From Phytoactinopolyspora limicola (GTDB lineage Bacteria; Actinomycetota; Actinomycetes; Jiangellales; Jiangellaceae), in NCBI RefSeq assembly GCF_011320225.1, contig NZ_JAAOEN010000006.1, forward strand, positions 62,001-126,000: a DNA stretch of 64,000 nt, in the 5' to 3' direction. The notes under the pieces were generated by a model, which did not search any database, was not told the DNA's origin, and saw nothing but the letters and a program-made list of their open reading frames with translations. A program made the translations under genes and the position numbers. Positions 39,623 through 51,778 of this stretch are shown in pieces. The stretch's first letter is position 1; each line of letters begins with the position of its first letter.

Positions 39623-40891
39623 CTATGGCTTGAGCGCACCGATTGGAACGACATCGACGTGGTCGGGTCGCCGATACGCGTATTCGCCGGCCGTGATCAC
39701 GACGAGCGCTTCTGGTTCCCGGGCGATCCGCCGTTCTGCGATCCGCCGGAGGGACGCCGCCGCACCGTCTATGTCATGCCCGAGCTTCACTTCGACGCCG
39801 ATCCAGGTCCCATCACGATTCTCGATGATCATGTCAGCTTCGAGATCGCCGTTACGCTCACGATAGTGATAAACCGAGGCGTCCAAGGCCTGCGCGTAGA
39901 CCAGCAAATCCCGCGTCACGAGAGACTCGAACAAGCTTCCCAGGATGAAGGGATTCTTGAGCAACCTCTCAGCATTTGAGCCGAGAAGAGACGCCGCCAG
40001 GGAAGGGTCAACGAGATGGCGCTTGCTCAACTCGGCCAACCTGGTACGCGATCTCAGTTCTGGGCTCCACGCTGGCAGGTCGGACGTGAGCATCAACTGC
40101 CCAGCAGCTTCTCGATAGGCATCGGCGGTTTGCCATGTCAGCGTTTGGTCTCGACCAGCCACGGGCGAGTCGTCCCCCACTACTCGAGAGACAATCTTGG
40201 TAAGCGGCGCAGGATGAGCCGTGAACTGTGCGTATGCCCGGAGAAACCGCTCCAGACGCGCCGGATCGTGGTGCGTGCCGCCAGCAGACGGGATGGCGTG
40301 CTCTACCGCGTAGACAAGATAGTTACGAGTGAACCGCTCCGGATTTGGCACAGCGCCGGTAACGATCTCGGGCCAACCGCCACGAACGATCAAATGAGCG
40401 TAGTCGGCGATGCTCGCCTCGCTGCGCCCCCGGGCCGGCTCTCCGCTGAACAGCGCAGCAAGGGAAACTTGCCCGGTCGAATCGCCGCTCTCCCATAAGC
40501 TCATCGGGCGCATCTGTACTCGAGCCATACGACCAGCGCCTGAGTGGCGACGCGCGTCTGGCTCCGGTGTTGCGGATCCGGTGAGCAAGAACTGTCCGGG
40601 TTCTCGGCGATCGTCTACTGCTCTTCGTACCGCGTTCCATAGACGAGGCTCGACCTGCCATTCATCGATCAGCCGGGGAACGGCGCCGTCTAGCACGAGA
40701 CCTGGGTCCAACCGCACCAGTTCCGCTGCCGCCTCGTCAACGTCGAGTCTTACCTCGCTGGCGGCATGCTGACGCGCGGTCTCAGTCTTGCCGCAGGCCT
40801 TAGGCCCCTCAAGGACAACCGCGCCCATCGCCGCGAGATCCGTTTTGATCTGGTCATCGACGATACGAGACCGATACGTACCCCTACCCAT
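39623..40891 (-). CDS. AAA ATPase with DUF4143 domain
   Basis: A 422-residue ATPase of the AAA_14/DUF4143 type. Walker A GPKACGKTETARQ is in the first 40 residues; LIDEWQ and FLLTGSA form Walker B and sensor. The C-terminal DUF4143 region ends with a PD-(D/E)xK-like stretch EADMIIENRDGTWIGVEVKLG. The start is the ATG at 40891, with CGGAGC five bases upstream; the frame runs on to 40918. Such genes are frequent in defence islands and their function is not established. Directly upstream lie three 23-bp tandem repeats. It converges on the STAND gene. Confidence 0.85.
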   Translation of the reverse strand: MGRGTYRSRIVDDQIKTDLAAMGAVVLEGPKACGKTETARQHAASEVRLDVDEAAAELVRLDPGLVLDGAVPRLIDEWQVEPRLWNAVRRAVDDRREPGQFLLTGSATPEPDARRHSGAGRMARVQMRPMSLWESGDSTGQVSLAALFSGEPARGRSEASIADYAHLIVRGGWPEIVTGAVPNPERFTRNYLVYAVEHAIPSAGGTHHDPARLERFLRAYAQFTAHPAPLTKIVSRVVGDDSPVAGRDQTLTWQTADAYREAAGQLMLTSDLPAWSPELRSRTRLAELSKRHLVDPSLAASLLGSNAERLLKNPFILGSLFESLVTRDLLVYAQALDASVYHYRERNGDLEADMIIENRDGTWIGVEVKLGHDIDGAAASLRRIAERRIAREPEALVVITAGEYAYRRPDHVDVVPIGALKP

Positions 40892-40921
40892 GAGCAGCTC
40901 CGTTGAAGCAGCAGACAATCT

Positions 40922-41536: not shown

Positions 41537-41809
41537 TCAGCCTTGCTCCCGAGCGGCAAGTGCAGCGAGCAGGGCAGCCTCGGCGGCTGTCGTCTTGGGC
41601 GTCGTGAGTTCGAGCGCCAGGCCGAGCGCTCGTAACACAAGAAACACCTGCTCGGTGCTGGCCGCCGGATGGCCGGCCTCGAACTTTGCCAGCCACGCAC
41701 GAGACACTCTGGCGTTCTCAGCCAGCGCGACCTGAGACATTCCACGTCGCTTACGTTCGGCCCGCACCGCGGCACCTAGCTGCCGCGCATCCGAGATGCT
41801 CGCCATCAC
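41537..41809 (-). CDS. HipB-like XRE-family regulator (orphan antitoxin)
   Basis: A 90-residue helix-turn-helix protein: LGAAVRAERKRRGMSQVALAENARVSRAWLAKFEAGHPAASTEQVFLVLRALGLALEL is the standard HipB fold. Its stop overlaps an ATG (TGATG) that starts MATPGDLSVF, resembling the first residues of HipA, but the frame then departs from the family and the next stop (41373) comes after about 54 codons. The toxin gene is thus missing and the antitoxin is left alone. Start ATG at 41809 or 41806. TA-type autoregulation is expected from the family, and AT-rich repeats (TAGACAAATC-like) lie just upstream at 41825-41890. Confidence 0.82.
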   Translation of the reverse strand: MMASISDARQLGAAVRAERKRRGMSQVALAENARVSRAWLAKFEAGHPAASTEQVFLVLRALGLALELTTPKTTAAEAALLAALAAREQG

Positions 41810-42002
41810 ACTCTCCTGTCCACGAATGTAGACGAAATCAAAATGTCTATGTACGTAGACACTATCAAAGGTCTGCGAACGTAGACACGTGATGCGCGGT
41901 CAAAGCTAGCCCAACGTTCGTGCTGCGCACAGGGCCAACGACGCACACACCGTGGTTCGTCTACGGCACATGAACACTGACCACAGCTGGAATACGCCGC
42001 CC

Positions 42003-42037
42003 CCATATTCAAGGTTATGCATCAACCTTGAATATGG
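42003..42037. promoter_or_regulatory. Fic-type inverted repeat, copy 1 (gene lost)
   Basis: Perfect 14-bp arms CCATATTCAAGGTT (42003-42016 / 42024-42037), loop ATGCATC. It is nearly the same as the repeat before the first fic gene (44403-44439), including the preceding GAATACGCCG. No fic gene follows here. Confidence 0.65.
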
Positions 42038-42171
42038 ACGGTAGCGACGACGGGCGAGCCTGCACATCGATGGGCGGCGCGACTCCTCAGCGAATGACGG
42101 CCGACGGCGATACCGCGTCGGTCGGCAACGACGTCCTCAACGTCCTCGGCCTCACCACCCCGCACCGACCC

Positions 42172-42293
42172 CGGTGATCATGAGCAGATTCCGGCCCACG
42201 CCGAAGGTGATCGTGAGCGCTGTCGAGTCGCTATGGCAACGCAAATCCGCTCACGATCACCGGTGCCTGAGGCACGAATCCGCTCACGATCAC
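42172..42293. terminator. GTGATC-family palindromes
   Basis: A perfect 14-bp pair GGTGATCGTGAGCG (42206-42219 / 42248-42261) with a GTCGCTATGGCAAC loop, and a second copy of AATCCGCTCACGATCAC ending at 42293. It lies 80 bp past the stop of the DHFR-like gene on the minus strand and at the end of the STAND remnant. Confidence 0.6.
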
Positions 42294-42372
42294 GCCGTCG
42301 ATAACCAGATCGATGGCCACTTCGCTGAGGTGATGCGCCTGAACGTCGACGAGCGACGGCGGCGCTTTCCAA

Positions 42373-43038
42373 CTACGTGCGGACTACCGCGTAGTTCAGG
42401 TGCGTGACCTGCGCTGACGGTTCCGTTTTTGTCTGCTTGATGGTGGCGCGCTCGGGGTCGATGCCGTCGAAGAGCTGGACCCCTTTGCCGAAGAGTACGG
42501 GCGAGAGGGCGATGGAAAACTCGTCGACCAGGCCCGCGTTCAGGTACTGGAGGATCGTGTCGCCGCCGCCGGCGATGCGAACATCTCGATCTCCGGCCGC
42601 CTTACGGGCCTGCTCAAGTGCGCTTTCGATGCCGTCGTTCACGAAATAGAACGTCGTGCCGCCGGGGCGTTCCCAAGGCTCTCGGACCTCATGAGTCACG
42701 ACGTAGACGGGGGTGTGGAACGGCGCCTCCTCCGGCCAGCTGACTTCACCAAGGTCGAACATCCGCTTGCCCATGACGCTGGCGCCGGTGCGGCGGAACG
42801 TCTCTTCGAGGATGGTGTTGTCGCGGCCTTCCTTGCCCCCCTCGCCGAACTTCAGGTTCTGGCGGAAGAAGCGCTGTCCGAGTACCCATGCCTGAAGCTT
42901 CGACCACTGAGCCGTCCACGCTTTGAGGCCGGGTGTGGTCTCGCCACGTCGGAGCGCGTCGACGTCGTCCGGGCTGCTCTCGGGTGCGACGTACCCGTCG
43001 AGCGACATCGAGACGCTGAAGAACACCTTGTCCGTCAT
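42373..43038 (-). CDS. Dihydrofolate reductase-like (RibD C-terminal) protein
   Basis: A 221-residue protein of the RibD_C/DHFR-like family: KVFFSVSMSLDGYVA at the start, TGASVMGKRMFDLGEVSW in the middle, and VRIAGGGDTILQYLNAGLVDEFSIALSPVLFGKGVQLFD near the end. NADPH-dependent reduction of a small molecule is likely. The start ATG (43038) overlaps the stop of the AHSA1 gene (TGATG). It is the third gene of an ArsR/AHSA1/DHFR-like operon. A second member of the family is cut by the right edge of the window. Confidence 0.9.
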   Translation of the reverse strand: MTDKVFFSVSMSLDGYVAPESSPDDVDALRRGETTPGLKAWTAQWSKLQAWVLGQRFFRQNLKFGEGGKEGRDNTILEETFRRTGASVMGKRMFDLGEVSWPEEAPFHTPVYVVTHEVREPWERPGGTTFYFVNDGIESALEQARKAAGDRDVRIAGGGDTILQYLNAGLVDEFSIALSPVLFGKGVQLFDGIDPERATIKQTKTEPSAQVTHLNYAVVRT

Positions 43039-43532
43039 CACTGGCCTTCCGTCGAGTTGTTCTGGCTGGTGACGTACTCCGCCAGCCGGCCAATGGTCTG
43101 CTGGCCCCCCTCGATCGCGTGGTGCTCCTTGGCTGCTTGGTCGCGGAGTTCGGCGGTCGGGAAGATCGTCCGCATGACGACGTCGGTGGTGTCGCCGTCG
43201 TCGTCGAAGGTCAGAATCGACTCGAAGGCATTCGGGTCGTCCGCCGACTCGCCATGCAACAGGACGATCCGCTCCGGGCGCACGATCTCGCGCCAGGTGA
43301 TCCACTCCGGATAATCCGTGCCGTCCGGGCCGTGCATGGTGAAACTCCAGACGCCGCCCTCACGGAACTCGAACGCGCGCGTTGTGGTGGTGAACCCATT
43401 GGGCCCCCACCACTGCGACAGGTGGCGCACCTCGGTGAAGGCGCTGAACACCAGGTCGCGCGGTGCATCGATGGTGCGAGTGATCACGATCTCGCGGTCG
43501 GCGGTTGTCTGGTGTGCTGAGTTAGTTGTCAT
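43038..43532 (-). CDS. AHSA1-family SRPBCC protein
   Basis: A 164-residue Bet v1-like protein: REIVITRTIDAPRDLVFSAFTEVRHLSQWWGPNGFTTTTRAFEFREGG is the classical AHSA1 N-terminus. The C-terminal helix is HHAIEGGQQTIGRLAEYV. It overlaps the 3' end of the arsR-like gene by 11 bp and couples to the DHFR-like gene. ArsR-AHSA1 pairs are widespread, and the ligand is usually unknown. This is the second such pair in the window. Confidence 0.92.
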   Translation of the reverse strand: MTTNSAHQTTADREIVITRTIDAPRDLVFSAFTEVRHLSQWWGPNGFTTTTRAFEFREGGVWSFTMHGPDGTDYPEWITWREIVRPERIVLLHGESADDPNAFESILTFDDDGDTTDVVMRTIFPTAELRDQAAKEHHAIEGGQQTIGRLAEYVTSQNNSTEGQ

Positions 43533-43878
43533 CGGGGTTCTCTTTCTGCGACTCGCTCTTGAGTTCCTGCACGTAGGTGTTCAATCGGTCGAAGCTCTCG
43601 TTCCAGAACTCCGCAAAGCCGCCCACCCACTCGTGGATGGGCTGTAGGCCGCGGGCGTCCAAGCCGTAGAGCCGCTGCTTGCCGACCTCGCGGACCTGGA
43701 CTAGCTGCACCTCCCGCAGCACCCGGAGGTGTTTGGACGCACTGGGCTGCGGGATGCCGAGCTCCTTGGCGAGCTCCAGAACGGGGCGCTCGCCGTTCTT
43801 GAGCAGCTCCAAGATGCCGCGACGCTGCGGCTCGGCGATCGCGTTGAACGTGTCGGATGTGGTTGCTGCTCGAGGCAT
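43522..43878 (-). CDS. ArsR-family repressor
   Basis: A 118-residue winged-helix regulator: TFNAIAEPQRRGILELLKNGERPVLELAKELGIPQPSASKHLRVLREVQLVQVREVGKQRLYGLD is canonical, with the recognition helix QPSASKHLRVL. The C-terminal FWNESFDRLNTYVQELK helix mediates dimers. No metal-binding ELCVCDL motif, so it is of the AHSA1-linked non-metal subgroup. A perfect palindrome 10 bp upstream of its ATG suggests tight autorepression of the operon. Confidence 0.93.
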   Translation of the reverse strand: MPRAATTSDTFNAIAEPQRRGILELLKNGERPVLELAKELGIPQPSASKHLRVLREVQLVQVREVGKQRLYGLDARGLQPIHEWVGGFAEFWNESFDRLNTYVQELKSESQKENPDDN

Positions 43879-43888
43879 GCACCCATCA

Positions 43889-43906
43889 TATTCCCATATG
43901 GGAATA
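43889..43906. promoter_or_regulatory. Operator of the ArsR operon
   Basis: Perfect 18-bp palindrome TATTCCCATATGGGAATA, starting 10 bp before the arsR-like ATG. The position over the core promoter or 5' end fits autorepression. Confidence 0.65.
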
Positions 43907-43962
43907 CGTCAAGCGAGGCGTTTGTGCGACATCGACACCGCGCGGAGGTGAGGCGCGGTGCG

Positions 43963-44130
43963 TCAATGACGCGGTAGGCGTATCCAGGCAGCTGAACGCC
44001 CGAAGCCGTCGGGCGCCACGATCCCTTCATCGCGCAAGCGGTTCAGCACGAGCCGGATCGTCTGGTCGCTGACCCCCGGCAACGCGGCACGGATGTCTGC
44101 CAGGCGCATAGCCGTGGGGGCGTGGTGCAT
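43963..44130 (-). pseudogene. Winged-helix tail of a lost Fic-type protein
   Basis: A 55-codon frame beginning at ATG 44130 reads MRLADIRAALPGVSDQTIRL and VLNRLRDEGIVAPDGFGRSA, a winged-helix module like those at the C-terminus of Fic-family or regulator proteins. The same frame is open upstream (GSKQDRVRDYV), with no ribosome site in front. It may be a very small regulator, but a remnant is more likely given the neighbouring fic genes. Confidence 0.45.
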
Positions 44131-44402
44131 CACGTAGTCGCGAACCCGGTCTTGCTTGCTGCCACTTGCCCTCTGTGTCGCGGCTCGCTGACTGAAGCTT
44201 TTGGTATGCGCCCGCCGCCCGCCGTAGCTCGGGTTGTAGGCAAAGCCATGTTTACCGGTGTTGGCTTGGATCAGGTGCCAAGTGTGGTCGTTCGATCACA
44301 TACCGCGTTGTTGCCGAACGGCCACAAATGCGCAGGTAGGTGGTCGACAGGGGCCGTCGGTGTGTTGCCGGTAGCGGTGAAGACAGGCTTGAATACGCCG
44401 AG

Positions 44403-44439
44403 CCCTTATTCAAGGTTATGCGCTAACCTTGAATAAGGG
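44403..44439. promoter_or_regulatory. Inverted repeat in front of fic gene 1
   Basis: Perfect 16-bp arms CCCTTATTCAAGGTTA (44403-44418 / 44424-44439), loop TGCGC. Its right end merges with the GGGAGG ribosome site of the Fic gene, so it could act as an operator or as an mRNA hairpin that hides the site. Confidence 0.72.
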
Positions 44440-44448
44440 AGGTAATTG

Positions 44449-45699
44449 ATGGGACGTTACGAGGCGCGAACATGGCCGGCTGATCCCTCCGGGGCTACCC
44501 GCGCTGAACGCACATCGTGCCGGTACCAAGCCTACGTCCCGGAGCCTCTCGTAGGAATCGACTTGGATCTGTCGGCTTCTGCGGCGGCCGACGTGGTCGA
44601 CGTCGAGCAACAGGTGCGCCATCTCAACGATGCTCACCCCGGTTTGGCGAATCTTGAGCCCCTCGCGAGGTTCCTTCTGCGTGCAGAGGCGGTCGCTTCC
44701 TCGAACATAGAGGGCTTAGTCCTCAATGTTCGTCGCTTGGCCCGCAGTGAGGCAGCTGAACGAGAGGGCCTACCAGTCACTGATGAGACCGCCAGAGCGG
44801 TCCTCGGCAATGTCAAAGCGCTCGACGAAGCTCTCACCCTCGCCTCGGATCCGAACATGCCGGTAACAGTCGACGACATCGGGATGGTCCACAAGGCGTT
44901 GCTTGTAGGAACGCGCGATGAGAGATGGGCCGGTGTCGTGCGCAGCGAGCAAAACTGGATCGGTGGAGTAAATCCATGCTCCGCCGCCTTCGTGCCGCCA
45001 CCCGAGGCGTACGTTCCCGCCCTCCTTGATGACCTCGCCGCATACATCTCCGGAGAGGAGCACCCAGCGCTCTTGCAGGCAGCCCTCGCTCATTCACAGT
45101 TCGAGACCATCCATCCTTTTGCCGATGGCAACGGGCGGGCTGGGCGAGCACTCATTCAACTGGTCTTGCGCCGCCGCGGCGTTGCGACACGGGTGGTGCC
45201 ACCGGTTTCCCTTGTTCTCGCGACCCAGGCCGACACGTATATAGATGCACTCGACCAAACTCGAGTCGATGGTTCCACGGTGTCGGGCCAACTGTTGTGG
45301 GTGGAACTGTTCCTCTCCGCTGCCGGCCGTGCGTGCCGCGACTCGTCGCAGTTCGCCACTGATCTGGCCTCGTTGGAAAGTTCGTGGAGGTCCAGCCTCG
45401 GACGGGTGCGCGCGAACTCGGCGACGGACCTCTTGGTGACAGCCCTGCCGTCCCTCCCCGTGTTCTCGGTGGCGACTGCTGCGACCCATATTGCGAGGAC
45501 GTTTCAAGCGACAAGTGAGGCCGTCAACCGGCTGGTGCAAGCAGGCGTAGTGCGGCAGATGAAGGTAGGGCGCCGAAATCGAACATTTGAAGCAGTAGGA
45601 CTCTTTGAAGCGTTCACCGGGTTCGAGCGACTGCTCGCCAGCCCGGGCGCCGACACACAGATGTCCCCATCGGAACGTCCAGTGCCACAACGTCCGTAA
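44449..45699 (+). CDS. Fic-domain protein 1
   Basis: A 416-residue Fic protein, predicted to AMPylate or otherwise modify a protein with a nucleotide. The Fic motif HPFADGNGRAGR starts at His222. An inhibitory helix motif SxxxEG (SSNIEG, residues 84-89) lies N-terminal to the core, as in class II Fic proteins, and should autoinhibit activity. The Fic_N-like region and WIGG loop (NWIGGVNPCSAAFVPPP) precede it. A C-terminal winged-helix (about 340-400, ATAATHIARTFQATSEAVNRLV) ends the chain. Start ATG 44449, GGGAGG upstream. The target is unknown. Confidence 0.92.
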   Translation: MGRYEARTWPADPSGATRAERTSCRYQAYVPEPLVGIDLDLSASAAADVVDVEQQVRHLNDAHPGLANLEPLARFLLRAEAVASSNIEGLVLNVRRLARSEAAEREGLPVTDETARAVLGNVKALDEALTLASDPNMPVTVDDIGMVHKALLVGTRDERWAGVVRSEQNWIGGVNPCSAAFVPPPEAYVPALLDDLAAYISGEEHPALLQAALAHSQFETIHPFADGNGRAGRALIQLVLRRRGVATRVVPPVSLVLATQADTYIDALDQTRVDGSTVSGQLLWVELFLSAAGRACRDSSQFATDLASLESSWRSSLGRVRANSATDLLVTALPSLPVFSVATAATHIARTFQATSEAVNRLVQAGVVRQMKVGRRNRTFEAVGLFEAFTGFERLLASPGADTQMSPSERPVPQRP

Positions 45700-45860
45700 C
45701 GATCTACCGGATGAGATAGATCTTGCGCGGCGCGGTCATGGTCCGGTCGCGTCGGCCTTCTCGCGTAACGAACGGCGGGAAGTATCTCGGCGCCGGGGAT
45801 GGTGGGTGCGAGTGAGCGTGGGAGCTCGTCTACCGATGTCGCGGCTGAACCTATCGATGT

Positions 45861-45882
45861 GAGTTTCCAAATTGGAAAACTC
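45861..45882. promoter_or_regulatory. Inverted repeat between the fic genes
   Basis: GAGTTTCCAA-ATTGGAAAACTC, with perfect inner arms TTTCCAA-A-TTGGAAA. It lies 160 bp before the second fic gene. The 341-bp gap (45700-46040) holds no gene; CGGTTATGCTTA near 45988 is a weak trace of the Fic repeat. Confidence 0.4.
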
Positions 45883-46040
45883 GGTTCCCCGCGCGTTGGC
45901 CCGCGGGCGGGGGCGTCGATAGGTATGTCGCTGCTGAAGCATGGACTGCGGCGACCCGCAACCGTAACTTGCGGCGCTCTTGTTTACGGTTATGCTTAAA
46001 AAAGTAATCAAGGCTGCCCATAGTTTCGGATGGGAGGGCA

Positions 46041-47369
46041 ATGGCGAAGCCGCCTGAGCCGAAGGGTGTGCCGGCAGGTGGCCGGCACGGCGACGTGCGA
46101 GCCGACGAACCCGTCGAACTCCCTGGTGGCCGCCAGGCTGCACTCGACTGGCCGGCAACCGAACACCGTCAGATCCCGTGGCGCACCAACCCTGACCAGC
46201 GCGGCAGGGACGGTCGGCGGCCCAACTATCAGGACAGGATGCTCACTTCGGTGGTGGCCGAGGTGCCACCCAGAATCGCCGACGTTCCGGTTCACCTGAC
46301 TTCTGACCTTGCCGAACTCTGCCGCTACGTCGAGGGGGAGATAGCCCGTCTGGATGCCGAGTACGGCGCCCATCTGGTGGGTCTCTCGTCTTTTCTGGTG
46401 CGGTCGGAATCGGTCGCTTCCTCCCGGATCGAGCACGTGTACGCCGACCTCGATGACGTCGCCCGGGCGTCGATCGCCGAAGAAGCCTCGCGTGCAGCCA
46501 TGGGTACCGTCGCCGCGATCGAGGCGACGGCCAAGCTGATCCACAGCCAGGAGCCCGGTCAGCCGTTCCGCGAGGCCACACTGTTGAATGCCCACCACAC
46601 GCTTCTCGAAGACGACCCCATGGAAAGCCAATACGCAGGCAAGTACCGCGACGTCCAGAACTGGATCGGGGGCAGCGACTTCAGCCCCCGCGACGCTGTC
46701 CACGTCCCCGCCCCACCGGGGGAGATCAAGCCCCTGATGGCTGATCTCGTGGCATTCGCGAACCGGGACGACCTTTCGCCGCTTGCCCAAGCCGCACTCG
46801 TGCACGGCCAGTTCGAGGCGATCCACCCTTTCACGGACGGCAACGGCCGCATCGGCCGCGGACTCATCGCCGTGACCCTCCGCAGGCGGGCTGTCGCCCG
46901 GCAGGTCATCGCCCCCGTAGCCGCGGCCATGCTGGCAGACGTCGACACCTACTTCGAATCCCTGATCGCCTATCGCCGCGGTGACGGCGGCAGGCTGATC
47001 GGCTATATGGCACGCGCCGCGGAAACCGCCACGCGCGAGGCGGCGGTGTCAGCCCAGCGATTGAGCGAGATGCCACAGACGTGGCGAGACCTGGTCCGCC
47101 CGCGCGCGAACTCGTCGGCGGCGAAGCTCATCGATGGGCTCGTAGCAACTCCCTACTTCAATGCGCAGATCGCGCAGCGGATCACGGGATCGGCCGCGCC
47201 CCGCACGTACGAAGCAATCGAGAAACTGGCAGAGGCCGGTGTCCTCCGGGAGATCACCGGCGGTGCGCGGAACCGCGTCTGGGCGGCCAGCGATGTAACG
47301 ACCGAAATCGCCGACCTCGACGAACGCATCGGCAGGCGGGTCAAGCCCTCGGGCCGCTGGCGACTATAG
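46041..47369 (+). CDS. Fic-domain protein 2
   Basis: A 442-residue Fic protein with an intact motif HPFTDGNGRIGR (His262). An inhibitory-helix-like segment SSRIEH is present, but the usual Gly/Asn after Glu is His. The core has NWIGGSDFSPRDAVHVPAPP and the C-terminal part has a winged helix (TPYFNAQIAQRITGSAAPRTYEAIEKLAEAGVL). About 35% similar by eye to Fic 1, same domain order, so a paralogue or a second acquisition. Start ATG 46041, GGGAGG four bases upstream. The N-terminal 65 residues are Arg/Pro-rich. Confidence 0.92.
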   Translation: MAKPPEPKGVPAGGRHGDVRADEPVELPGGRQAALDWPATEHRQIPWRTNPDQRGRDGRRPNYQDRMLTSVVAEVPPRIADVPVHLTSDLAELCRYVEGEIARLDAEYGAHLVGLSSFLVRSESVASSRIEHVYADLDDVARASIAEEASRAAMGTVAAIEATAKLIHSQEPGQPFREATLLNAHHTLLEDDPMESQYAGKYRDVQNWIGGSDFSPRDAVHVPAPPGEIKPLMADLVAFANRDDLSPLAQAALVHGQFEAIHPFTDGNGRIGRGLIAVTLRRRAVARQVIAPVAAAMLADVDTYFESLIAYRRGDGGRLIGYMARAAETATREAAVSAQRLSEMPQTWRDLVRPRANSSAAKLIDGLVATPYFNAQIAQRITGSAAPRTYEAIEKLAEAGVLREITGGARNRVWAASDVTTEIADLDERIGRRVKPSGRWRL

Positions 47370-47549
47370 GACGCTGAAGCGGAGCAACGGTCGGCGGACA
47401 TAAGGCGGTCTCGGCGATGCCTGTACCTAAGTACAGTGTTCCCAAGTACAGTCGTCGAAGACTGCCGTGCTCCGGTCCCTGCCGTCATGGGCAACGGCGC
47501 GATAGGCGACACACAGGCGGCCAACGACGGCGAAGGCAACCTTGAACAA

Positions 47550-47581
47550 GCCGGAGCCATATTCAAGGTTGTGCGTTAACC
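47550..47581. promoter_or_regulatory. Fic-type inverted repeat, copy 3 (degenerate)
   Basis: GCCATATTCAAGGTT followed by GTGCGTTAACC repeats the left arm and core of the other two copies, with CTTGAACAAGCCGGAG before it. The right arm is lost after AACC. It lies 75 bp before a short ORF at 47657. In the 47370-47549 stretch, AAGTACAGT is repeated at about 47428 and 47444. Confidence 0.55.
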
Positions 47582-47656
47582 GCGCCGACCTCCTCCGGCC
47601 ACGAACGACGGTAGGCGTCGCCATCATAGGCGAGCGCGTGTGCCAGGAGGGTACCT

Positions 47657-48920: not shown

Positions 48921-51434
48921 GTGGGCAAAGTGGGCAACGAAGCGGGTCGCACACCGGGCGGCGCCATGTCAGGCGTCGCAGACGTTGGCAAGGCGGACGT
49001 GGCTTCTGACCTCGTGGACACTGTCATGGGGGCGGCTGCGGACGCTCCTGACCTAGACGACGACGCTCGCCTTCTGCTGCTGTCGATATTCACCAACGAC
49101 GACGACATGCAGGCGGAACTGATCGGCAGCGCCCCCAAGCGCAACACCAAAGCTGCGTCAGAGAGCCCGGCCGTGCCGGCCGGAGCGTTCCTGAAGTCGG
49201 TCACCGTGACCGGCTTCCGCGGCGTCGGCGTCCAGGCACGGCTCGATTTGCATCCTGCGCCGGGGGTCACCGTCGTCGCGGGCCGTAATGGCTCCGGCAA
49301 ATCGACGTTCAGCGAGGCCGTGGAAGTAGCCCTGACCCGGACGTCGTACCGCTGGAGCAACAAGAAGAACGCAGCGTGGCGAGCCGGCTGGCGCAACCTT
49401 CATCACGCCGACCCGTGCGGCATCAAGGTGGAGCTGGCTGAGCAGCATGCCGGCCTCACCACCATTGGCGTGGACTGGACGGCTGATTCGGAGCTCGACG
49501 GTGGGACGTTCTGGACACAACGCCCGGGAGAACGGCGCGACACCGCTGCTGACCCACTCGGATGGGCTGCTCCGCTGGAGCTTTACCGGCCTTTGCTCTC
49601 GTATGACGAGCTCGGCGGCATCCTCGAGGCCGGGCCGAGCAAGTTGTACGACAAGCTCTCCATCGTGCTCGGGCTGGGGCCGATCGCTGACGCCGTGGAC
49701 CAGCTCGACGACTTGGCCAAGGCAGCGGCCGCACCCCGGCGCGAAGCGAACAAAATGGTCTCGCAGCTGCTCACCAGACTCAACGCATCGCAAGATGCTC
49801 GTGCGGCCGAAGCGCACAAGCTCCTGAAGGCGCGCAAGCGCGACCATGACGCCATCGCGCAGCTCGCCACCGGCGTGGGCACGGCACCGGCCGACGACCT
49901 GGCGGTGCTGCGCACGCTGGCTGCACTGACGGTTCCGCCGGTAGACGACGTCCGTGCCCTCGTCGAGAAGTGCGTGCAAACACGTCATGCGCTTGCCGAG
50001 CTGTCCGGAACCGCGGCCGAGGCGCTCGTTCGCCGTACCGCCTTGCTGAATCACGCGCTGGAGCATGTAGCCGTCACCGGTGCCGGGCCGTGTCCCCTGT
50101 GCGGCGTCGGTACGCTCGACGATGCGTGGGCTGGCGAGGCACGCGGCGAAGTCGCCCAGCTGAAGCAGCAGACCGAAGCGCTCGAGAAGGCCGATGCGGC
50201 CTACCAGACAGCGCTGCGTCAACTGCGGTCAATACTTCCGATCGCACCACCGGCACTGGAGGCCCACGTCGACTGCGACCTGCCCAGTAAGGAACAGGCA
50301 GCCGACGCTTGGCGCGCTGTGCGCGATGTCGATGTCACCACTGCATCCGGACCGCAGGAGTACCTCGACGCCTACACCACCCTCGTAGCGAATGTGGCAG
50401 AGCTGCGGCAGGCGGCCGAAGCCGAACGCCAACGACGCGAGGACCTCTGGGCGCCCCTAGCCAGCAGCCTCGCCGAGGTAGTCGGCGCGCTGCGAAAGGC
50501 CGACGACGCGGACCGACGTGGCGTCACGGTCAAAGCGGCTGCCTCATGGCTGAAAGAGCACGCCAACCAGCTACGCAACGAGCGCCTACGCCCCATCTCC
50601 GACCATGCGCAGCAGATCTGGGCCGAGCTGCGACAAGAAAGCAACGTGGATCTCGGGCCGATCGAAGTGGCTGGCACCAATACCCGGCGCCGGGTCGAGC
50701 TCTCCGCCGAGGTCGACGGTCACGAGACCGGGGCGCTCACCGTCATGAGTCAGGGCGAGCTCCACGCCCTTGCCCTAGCACTGTTCTTACCGCGGGCGAC
50801 GTTGCCCGCAAGCCCGTTCCGGTTCGTCGTCGTCGATGACCCCGTGCAGGCGATGGACCCGGCCAAGGTGGACGGCTTGGCCCGGGTCCTCGAGCGGATC
50901 GGGCGGACCCACCAGGTCATCGTGTTCACCCACGACAACCGGCTGCCCGAGGCCATCCGATGTTTAGGAATCGACGCCCGGATCCTTGAGGTGCATCGAG
51001 CCGAAGGATCCAAGGTCGAAGTAGTCAACGCCTCCGACCCCGCACAGCGCTACCTGTCCGACGCTCACGCCGTCGCCCGGGATCCCGGGGCAGACGCGGA
51101 GGTCCGGCGGCGGATTATCCCCGTGCTGTGCCGGCTCGCCGTCGAGAACGCTTGCCGCGAGTTGTTCACGGCCCGGCGCTACGCACGCGGTATCAGTCGC
51201 GACGACGTCGAGGCGGCCTGGGACCAAGCGCGGACGACTCGTCAACGGGTTGCGCTTGCGCTTCATGACGATCCCAAAGCCGACCCGCAGCCGTGGCTGG
51301 CACGCGGCAACCGGCGCAGCGGAGCTATGCAGGTCATCGGCCGCGACAGTCATCACGGCCTGGAACGCGACGCCGTTGGCGCCGTCGGTGACGTACGCCT
51401 GTTGGTCCAAGACCTCCGATCGGAGGCGAGATGA
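48921..51434 (+). CDS. SMC/Rad50-like AAA ATPase with zinc-hook motif
   Basis: An 837-residue ABC-class ATPase. Walker A is GRNGSGKST (residues 121-129), after a flexible 80-residue N-terminus. A coiled-coil-rich middle carries CPLCG (about 391), half of a zinc hook as in Rad50 and RloC. The signature region is MSQGELHALALALFLP (about 609), then Walker B FVVVDDPVQAMD (Asp-Asp in place of Asp-Glu) and the switch THDNR (about 671). The last 150 residues are helical, with Cys and His. Its stop overlaps the next start (ATGA). Similar ATPases act in anti-phage systems such as RloC and PrrC; here the role is inference. Start GTG 48921 is uncertain. Confidence 0.85.
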   Translation: MGKVGNEAGRTPGGAMSGVADVGKADVASDLVDTVMGAAADAPDLDDDARLLLLSIFTNDDDMQAELIGSAPKRNTKAASESPAVPAGAFLKSVTVTGFRGVGVQARLDLHPAPGVTVVAGRNGSGKSTFSEAVEVALTRTSYRWSNKKNAAWRAGWRNLHHADPCGIKVELAEQHAGLTTIGVDWTADSELDGGTFWTQRPGERRDTAADPLGWAAPLELYRPLLSYDELGGILEAGPSKLYDKLSIVLGLGPIADAVDQLDDLAKAAAAPRREANKMVSQLLTRLNASQDARAAEAHKLLKARKRDHDAIAQLATGVGTAPADDLAVLRTLAALTVPPVDDVRALVEKCVQTRHALAELSGTAAEALVRRTALLNHALEHVAVTGAGPCPLCGVGTLDDAWAGEARGEVAQLKQQTEALEKADAAYQTALRQLRSILPIAPPALEAHVDCDLPSKEQAADAWRAVRDVDVTTASGPQEYLDAYTTLVANVAELRQAAEAERQRREDLWAPLASSLAEVVGALRKADDADRRGVTVKAAASWLKEHANQLRNERLRPISDHAQQIWAELRQESNVDLGPIEVAGTNTRRRVELSAEVDGHETGALTVMSQGELHALALALFLPRATLPASPFRFVVVDDPVQAMDPAKVDGLARVLERIGRTHQVIVFTHDNRLPEAIRCLGIDARILEVHRAEGSKVEVVNASDPAQRYLSDAHAVARDPGADAEVRRRIIPVLCRLAVENACRELFTARRYARGISRDDVEAAWDQARTTRQRVALALHDDPKADPQPWLARGNRRSGAMQVIGRDSHHGLERDAVGAVGDVRLLVQDLRSEAR

Positions 51435-51778
51435 GCACGCCCGACCCTGCCCGCCTGCTGACACTGGCCGAGCAGATCCTCGCCGGAGACGTTGACACAC
51501 CACGAGCCCGCTCGTCGCGCTCAGCAGCGATCCTCGGGCGTACAGCATTGGAGCGGCTGGTCCAGGACCTTTGCGCCCGTCACGGCTTGGAGGTATCGGC
51601 CGCTTCCATGCGAGTTCAGCTCGCCTGCCTGTCGGCTGTGACCCCGTCCGTCGCCAGCGAGGCCAACATGGCGTGGTGGGGACTCAGCCGAGCCTGTCAT
51701 CAGCACGCGTACGAGATCGCGCCCAGCCACGACGAGGTCCGGCGATTCCTCACCCGCGTCCGCCAGCTCAGCGGGTGA
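51431..51778 (+). CDS. Small HEPN-like partner of the SMC-like ATPase
   Basis: A 115-residue all-helical protein translated in overlap with the ATPase (4 bp). Helices include SRSAAILGRTALERLVQDL and ANMAWWGLSRACHQHAYEIA. The RACHQH segment fits the R-x4-6-H motif of HEPN ribonucleases, and the helical length is right for a HEPN domain. If so, the pair could be an ATPase sensor with an RNase effector. The assignment is tentative; the family is not recognised with certainty. Start ATG 51431. Confidence 0.6.
   Translation: MSTPDPARLLTLAEQILAGDVDTPRARSSRSAAILGRTALERLVQDLCARHGLEVSAASMRVQLACLSAVTPSVASEANMAWWGLSRACHQHAYEIAPSHDEVRRFLTRVRQLSG

Follow-up and report, generated by a model that had tools for sequence, protein, structure and literature searches.

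A periodic inverted repeat upstream of SoFic-like fic genes as a probable operator for the Fic protein itself

Introduction

How Sofic toxins stay quiet and then fire upon phage infection is called elusive in the part of PMC12249575 available to us. A stretch of 64,000 nucleotides from Phytoactinopolyspora limicola (contig NZ_JAAOEN010000006.1, positions 62,001 to 126,000; hereafter the window) raises the question in a concrete form: it holds two SoFic-like fic genes, fic1 and fic2, and three copies of an inverted repeat, the middle one of which stands directly before fic1. An earlier note, made from the sequence alone, proposed that the repeat is a specific operator for Fic modules and that the other two copies were left by deleted fic genes. 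Here, we ask what the repeat does and which protein would read it. Comparative sequence analysis and structural modeling make it likely that SoFic-like fic genes have the repeat as their transcriptional operator, and that Fic itself binds it through a C-terminal winged helix in an autorepressing arrangement.

Results

Copies 1 and 2 of the repeat are perfect palindromes around TTCAAGGTT-N7-AACCTTGAA, and copy 3 is degraded (Table 1). The three copies lie where the earlier note had placed them: with up to three mismatches allowed, TATTCAAGGTTATGCG matches the window three times, always on the forward strand, against 0.07 expected, and none of 100 shuffles reached three matches. The other six matches in the whole genome (6.59 megabases, Mb) all have exactly three mismatches and no further site in those 6.59 Mb lies within two; near copies thus number three genome-wide, and each lies inside the fic island. 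A chance repeat is ruled out by these shuffles together with the search upstream of fic genes described below. Between copies 1 and 2 the outer bases have changed on both arms together, so that each palindrome is still perfect. The related sequence that the note saw before each copy (GAAtACGCCGxxxCC) proved to be part of a third half-site: in all three copies an additional 9-mer resembling AACCTTGAA (H1) lies 15 base pairs (bp) before the left 9-bp half-site (H2), and the unit is therefore H1-N15-H2-N7-H3 and not a simple inverted repeat. Copy 3 retains H1, H2 and about half of H3. Copy 2 does adjoin the fic1 ribosome site (GGGAGG, with the start ATG at 44449), and no intact fic gene directly follows copies 1 or 3, both as originally observed.

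The AlphaFold model of Fic1 (pLDDT, the predicted local distance difference test, 88.4) has a winged-helix fold at residues 325-381, comprising helices 325-335 and 341-347, a predicted recognition helix at 352-364 and a wing at 369-381. Searched against solved structures with Foldseek, the model is matched best by Mycobacterium marinum Fic and then by SoFic, with 7xux and CbFic2 lower; the matching PDB folds include 7cb8, SoFic, 7xux (which we take to be CccR) and CbFic2 8cil. In Pfam, Fic1 scores above the cut-offs of both Fic_N and Fic, and Fic2 above that of Fic; both match the SoFic-like PADLOC profile PDLC03963 (Fic1 25-389, 1.1e-69; Fic2 88-420, 9.8e-63). Their scores of 58.5 and 64 bits against the SoFic equivalog of NCBIfam, NF046030, lie below its cut-off of 550. 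The catalytic motif HxFx(D/E)GNGRxxR is present in both proteins (HPFADGNGRAGR in Fic1, HPFTDGNGRIGR in Fic2), with nearly all columns invariant in 28 homologues. The N-terminal inhibitory motif of such proteins has the consensus (S/T)xxxE(G/N); SSNIEG of Fic1 fits it and SSRIEH of Fic2 is without the G/N, so that self-inhibition of Fic2 may differ. In type II toxin-antitoxin modules with a class I Fic, the inhibitory helix is carried by a small antitoxin gene beside fic. Here the motif lies inside Fic1 itself, and the fic1 start follows directly after the operator; mechanically called open reading frames, such as 44122-44436, lie nearby.

When the exact pattern TTCAAGGTT-N7-AACCTTGAA was searched in the genome_contigs collection (one genome per species, 84,980 species), 35 stretches were found, in 9 of which a fic homologue lies directly downstream (L029, L035, L038, L039, L040, L043, L044, L045 and L049; 33-89% identity over the part present). 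The earlier note had suggested a search upstream of fic homologues in other actinobacteria: 8 of the 11 actinobacterial stretches have fic directly downstream and a ninth (L041) holds a remnant of a fic start. A random position of the repeat relative to fic genes, which would have spoken against that proposal, was looked for and is not what these genomes present. Stretches L033, L041, L046, L051, L057 and L058 lie in DNA rich in guanine and cytosine (GC; 0.60-0.69) and keep 6-9 of the 9 letters of the outer half-site, with an intact fic absent. Among them, L057 (Chloroflexi) has a probable fic start remnant, a match to the first 22 codons at the position expected next to the palindrome (E 0.002 under loose search settings), and fic was not found in L033, L046, L051 and L058, where the outer half-site matches at 7-9 of 9 positions. 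The remaining 20 of the 35 have outer half-sites matching at no more than 5 of 9 positions, 18 of them in DNA below 50% GC, and look unrelated to fic. When 393 genomes of the class were scanned with two mismatches allowed, 17 had matches, against 5 for the reversed control pattern, and the exact pattern is absent from 2.9 million viral contigs. In a metagenome-assembled genome of the Holophagae, two perfect palindromes 40 bp apart precede fic (L029 6956-7020) and form one array of five half-sites.

Fic homologues gathered by protein search are preceded by different palindromes (TTGGAGGTT, TATTCAGGC, GCTAAGGTT, TGAAAGGAT, ACCAAGGTT, ATTCCGAGTTA and others), and it is the spacing, not the letters, that these putative operators have in common. 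The half-site period is 40-41 bp in actinobacteria and mostly 31, 41 or 51 bp in distant homologues. For counting, rows L003, L004, L133, L076, L102 and L104 (fragments, a near-duplicate and other Fic types) were removed, leaving 85 of 91, and the sets were clustered at below 80% protein identity, which gave 62 regions; the viral set from IMG/VR went from 80 loci to 79 usable and then to 45. Repeats of 9-mers on the same strand occur at an offset of 40 in 18 of 41 Fic1-type regions and of 41 in 7 of 41 (shuffle maximum 3), peak at 41 in the Fic2-type regions (6 of 21), and in the IMG/VR set fall at 31 in 12 of 45, at 51 in 9, at 62 in 8 and at 41 in 7 (mononucleotide-shuffle maximum 4). We also searched freely for tetrads, that is, four alternating half-sites of any sequence with a period of 28-55, and compared each region with 20 of its own dinucleotide shuffles. 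The shuffle maximum was exceeded in 26 of 41 Fic1-type, 10 of 21 Fic2-type and 34 of 45 IMG/VR regions, a total of 70/107 which, owing to the kinship that persists within subfamilies after clustering at 80%, does not count independent events. In the controls it was exceeded in 8/210 (inside the gene, 5/61 and 0/45; at about -700, 3/60 and 0/44). Though any period from 28 to 55 was allowed, the period fell at 30-31, 40-42 or 50-52 in 62 of the 70 positives. These are close to three, four and five turns of B-DNA, as expected of a protein on one face of the DNA; an RNA hairpin needs no such periods.

The same geometry recurs within the window, where a putative, diverged operator of period 40 precedes fic2 (Table 1). 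The half-sites of the two fic genes of one island thus differ in their letters and share their frame, which is what self-control by each Fic protein would predict. Of the ten plasmid matches listed, five were compared with 50 mononucleotide shuffles: the fic genes of Microvirga (period 41 bp), Phyllobacterium (41) and Lachnospira (52) exceeded them, that of Synechocystis (50) did so marginally, and that of Picosynechococcus did not. In L040, L044, L049 and L045 a fourth half-site lies within the first fic codons (e.g., ATG GCC AAG GTT), and there the operator may constrain the protein N-terminus.

The letters of the half-site change together with residues of the predicted recognition helix. 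Gln353-Ala354 (QA) is found in 13 of 13 homologues with TCAAGG half-sites and in 1 of 26 with others, a count over the 39 of 56 Fic1-type rows that have a clear operator and a complete protein, with half-site classes set by hand. The rows left out are L040, L049, L076, L077, L081, L082, L083, L088, L092, L099, L101-L105, L136 and L137; in L040 and L049 the operator is of the TCAAGG kind but the protein is truncated short of the helix, and the others for which the helix is shown do not have QA at 353-354. Further pairings are QT with TCAGGC (4/4), KP with TGGAGG (4/4), REA with (C/G)CAAGG (2/2) and VAA with CTAAGG or GCGAAGG (3/3). The distant group of period 31 has its own pairings: most proteins with KPTA have TTTACTAG, and those with APTA or SPTA have TTTCTTAG or TTCCTAGC. 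On a tree of residues 1-318, from which the winged helix was excluded, TCAAGG changes six times, at least three of them across supported branches, and QA follows.

Operators that stand alone in relatives bear on the two fic-less copies of the window. Genome G031 has the operator and fic, and its congener G054 has the operator and 84% identical upstream DNA, with homology resuming at the fic end (L012 2-1528 and 2833-2962 aligned with L011 17-1528 and 1566-1694). In G020 the DNA that precedes fic1 in the window, operator included, is kept over 137 bp at 86% and followed by an integrase-core (transposase-like) gene, with no fic1, and P. halotolerans C18 retains the operator, the ribosome site and about six codons. 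The alignments thus let fic loss with the operator left behind be seen more than once in relatives. Copy 1 of the window shares 53 bp at 87%, with an identical spacer, with the fic-less site of P. halotolerans. Behind copies 1 and 3 of the window tblastn detected no coding remnant of fic, and the window's one proven fic relic lies beside copy 2, not copies 1 or 3; about 0.95 kilobases (kb) are gone from it between 44210 and 44218, and its intact counterpart in G020 is at L228 10774-11859. The proposal that the additional copies were left by deleted fic genes therefore holds in the relatives G054, G020 and P. halotolerans C18, and copies 1 and 3 of the window are likely operators of the same kind, whose fic genes were lost. 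Copy 1 may still bind Fic1; that it is still perfect argues for a recent fic loss or a continuing role.

Several observations concern the surroundings of these genes. The same locus is found in Phytoactinopolyspora congeners. A phage origin of fic1 was considered and rejected, with no match at 1e-30 among 50,697 phage records; plasmid-borne relatives of Fic1 are 34-39% identical, and E. coli genomes, searched at the DNA level with a distant relative of SoFic, gave no match. A DUF4143 ATPase gene (39623-40918, reverse strand) adjoins the fic island and matches the PADLOC candidate PDC-S01 (7.8e-69). An Xre/HipB-like gene (41537-41809, reverse strand) has GTCTAC/GTAGAC repeats upstream (41830-41890) that by eye appear to be its own; P. 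halotolerans has a homologue of it, 78% identical, at a distance of 4.5 kb from the fic-less operator (L229). A RecF/SMC-like ATPase and a small overlapping gene (48921-51778) have weak PADLOC matches to several defence ATPases, and the pair is conserved in P. halotolerans (L229 11850-14588) at 70% DNA identity.

Table 1. Coordinates of repeat copies, fic genes and putative operators in the window
Feature	Position	Strand	Description
Copy 1, half-site H1	41984..41992	+	CAGCTGGAA, 6/9 match to AACCTTGAA
Copy 1, palindrome	42003..42037	+	14-bp arms, CCATATTCAAGGTT (42003-42016) and AACCTTGAATATGG (42024-42037); spacer ATGCATC; fic not directly downstream
Third fic gene, relic	43966..44202	-	Last 79 residues (winged helix), 90% identical to the intact G020 Fic
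Copy 2, half-site H1	44385..44393	+	AGGCTTGAA, 7/9
Copy 2, palindrome, putative fic1 operator	44403..44439	+	15-bp arms, CCCTTATTCAAGGTT (44403-44417) and AACCTTGAATAAGGG (44425-44439); spacer ATGCGCT; adjoins the fic1 ribosome site
fic1	44449..45699	+	SoFic-like; Fic_N and Fic (HPFADGNGRAGR, inhibitory SSNIEG), C-terminal winged helix
fic2 operator, diverged, putative	45959..46032	+	Period 40; score 37 vs maximum 34 in 20 shuffles; half-sites CAACCGTAA (45959-45967), TTACGGTTA (45984-45992), AAAAAGTAA (45999-46007), TTTCGGATG (46024-46032)
fic2	46041..47369	+	The other SoFic-like Fic of the window, alignable with the Fic1 winged helix in its C-terminal region
Copy 3, half-site H1	47538..47546	+	AACCTTGAA, 9/9
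Copy 3	47557..47586	+	Left arm CCATATTCAAGGTT (47557-47570); spacer GTGCGTT; right side reduced to AACC (47578-47581) in the broken half-site AACCGCGCC

Discussion

The occurrence of the element upstream of fic across genera and phyla, its conserved geometry and its covariation with the recognition helix support the proposal that it is an operator for Fic modules. We infer binding and repression by Fic, and its oligomeric state, from this pattern. In the mechanism that we propose, the half-sites alternate as H1-N15-H2-N7-H3-N15-H4, which gives those facing the same way a period of 40-41 bp, about four helical turns. Dimers of Fic, binding cooperatively, would occupy a single face of the DNA over the start region and the promoter, whose position is a prediction. 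Binding would keep the level of the AMPylase low, and the gene would be expressed once the protein is lost or titrated away.

A number of observations weigh against this interpretation. The regions that did not exceed their own shuffles are 15/41, 11/21 and 11/45 in the three sets. The free search returned a period of 37 for the window's fic1 and of 45 for L035, not 40; both are counted among the 70 positives, and the best tetrad there differs from the evident palindrome. The window's fic1 has only three half-sites, and it is the absence of H4 that made the free search miss the period of 40. The covariation with the recognition helix rests on hand-assigned half-site classes and leaves out 17/56 Fic1-type rows, and it has exceptions in L089 (Gln-Ala with TAAAGG) and, in the distant group, L195 (TPTA with TTTACTAG). 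On supported branches there are three independent pairs, in which QA is concordant in 2.8 on average and never opposite; with only three pairs a sign test cannot reach significance (median p 0.25). A Mantel-type partial test, which included two poor rows (L049, truncated, and L073, misregistered), gave a weak result, the recognition segment (0.27) doing no better than the rest of the winged helix (0.26). In G020 a different Fic gene, the intact counterpart of the window's relic, starts 305 bp away on the other side of the fic1-less operator and reads away from it, and it is therefore not certain that this operator serves nothing. Finally, the RNA of 44385-44470 (86 nucleotides) is predicted to fold into a strong hairpin (-31.7 kcal/mol, z -3.8), its 16-bp stem taking up part of the ribosome site.

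This last observation makes control at the RNA level, with the palindrome acting as an mRNA hairpin that hides the fic1 ribosome site, a real rival for fic1 alone, and the outer stem likewise covers the Shine-Dalgarno sequence in several homologues (L065, L068 and L070). A hairpin has no need of repeats at helical-turn spacings of 31, 41 and 51 bp, however, nor would it account for the outer half-sites retained in many homologues or for a distance between palindrome and start codon that varies from about -30 to -80. There is also a weak excess of the -10-like TANNNT at the right arm (20/27 against 13/27 for the mirror position), from which the mRNA would start after the palindrome, and we regard RNA-level control as improbable. 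It is similarly improbable that the operator belongs to another regulator, a host or island repressor. Such a regulator would explain why fic-less copies exist, and the Xre-type gene is only about 195 bp away from copy 1; yet it would not lead the half-site to change together with the recognition helix of Fic or the window's two Fic genes to have different half-sites. In the surroundings of the P. alkaliphila (L226), G020 (L228), P. halotolerans C64 (L227) and G022 (L230) operators, moreover, tblastn at 1e-4 gave no match to the Xre protein.

The status of copies 1 and 3 is a separate matter, as they could be working auxiliary operators, for DNA looping or a small Fic regulon, and not remnants. 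With its perfect palindrome, compensated outer bases and third half-site, copy 1 has the look of a functional site, but half an arm of copy 3 is gone, fic loss explains the fic-less operators of relatives, and in P. alkaliphila, P. halotolerans C64 and G022 no further copies matching at 13 or more of 18 positions were found out to 8.6-10.3 kb from the fic1 operator. We therefore consider an auxiliary role possible and rather unlikely. That the repeat is a mobile element or a terminator found near fic by accident is scarcely credible: 20/35 of the exact matches in genome_contigs do look unrelated to fic, but the periodic design marks 70/107 fic genes against 8/210 control stretches, and neither the lack of the exact pattern in 2.9 million viral contigs nor the confinement of the genome's three near copies to this island suggests mobility.

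If autorepression by Fic extends to the family, the combination of toxin-like enzyme and transcriptional control in one protein means that loss or titration of Fic would derepress fic, a built-in trigger for a phage-defence gene (the anti-phage activity here being putative). The wider generalization, that SoFic-like Fic proteins are their own repressors, that most lineages have a private, periodic and alternating operator of three, four or five turns whose letters could be read from four or five recognition-helix residues, and that derepression upon loss or titration serves as the phage-defence trigger, we hold to be evenly poised. A family-wide operator readable from sequence would, if real, allow a direct test of Sofic control and the annotation of promoters for many fic genes. 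Among the homologues, moreover, the letters of the operator appear to change along with the recognition helix at fixed geometry, which makes them a natural collection for studying the co-evolution of repressor and site.

Among known systems the closest comparison is with CccR of Yersinia pseudotuberculosis, which represses its own gene by binding an inverted repeat in its own promoter (PMC9755527, in the sections available). Within the open-access literature searched, as far as its accessible text extends, no Fic protein other than CccR has a defined operator of its own. Like Fic1, it joins a Fic domain to a C-terminal helix-turn-helix (HTH) and has an inverted repeat upstream of its gene, and 7xux is among the PDB matches of Fic1. 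In those same sections the CccR operator is described as two 10-bp half-sites 26 bp apart, whereas the half-sites here are of 9 bp with gaps of 7 and 15 and a period of 40. CccR is also a type VI effector. With the SoFic anti-phage family (PADLOC PDLC03963; Shewanella SoFic), Fic1 shares the fold including the C-terminal domain, but Fic1 and Fic2 fall far below the NCBIfam equivalog cut-off for SoFic proper. EcSofic is held by an antitoxin of 47 amino acids encoded downstream (PMC12249575, available part), and DNA binding by SoFic had not been shown as of 2023, according to the accessible portion of PMC10628234. The same portion describes Coxiella CbFic2 as a Fic enzyme with a DNA-binding HTH domain, which resembles the putative binding by Fic1; its binding was assayed on random DNA and, in that text, the operator is not defined. 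Lastly, the operators of AbiEi and of antitoxins, as presented in the excerpts at hand, resemble the fic operators in having multiple inverted repeats in their own promoters and are subject to cooperative autoregulation. In those systems it is the antitoxin that binds, whereas here the toxin-like enzyme and the putative repressor are one polypeptide.

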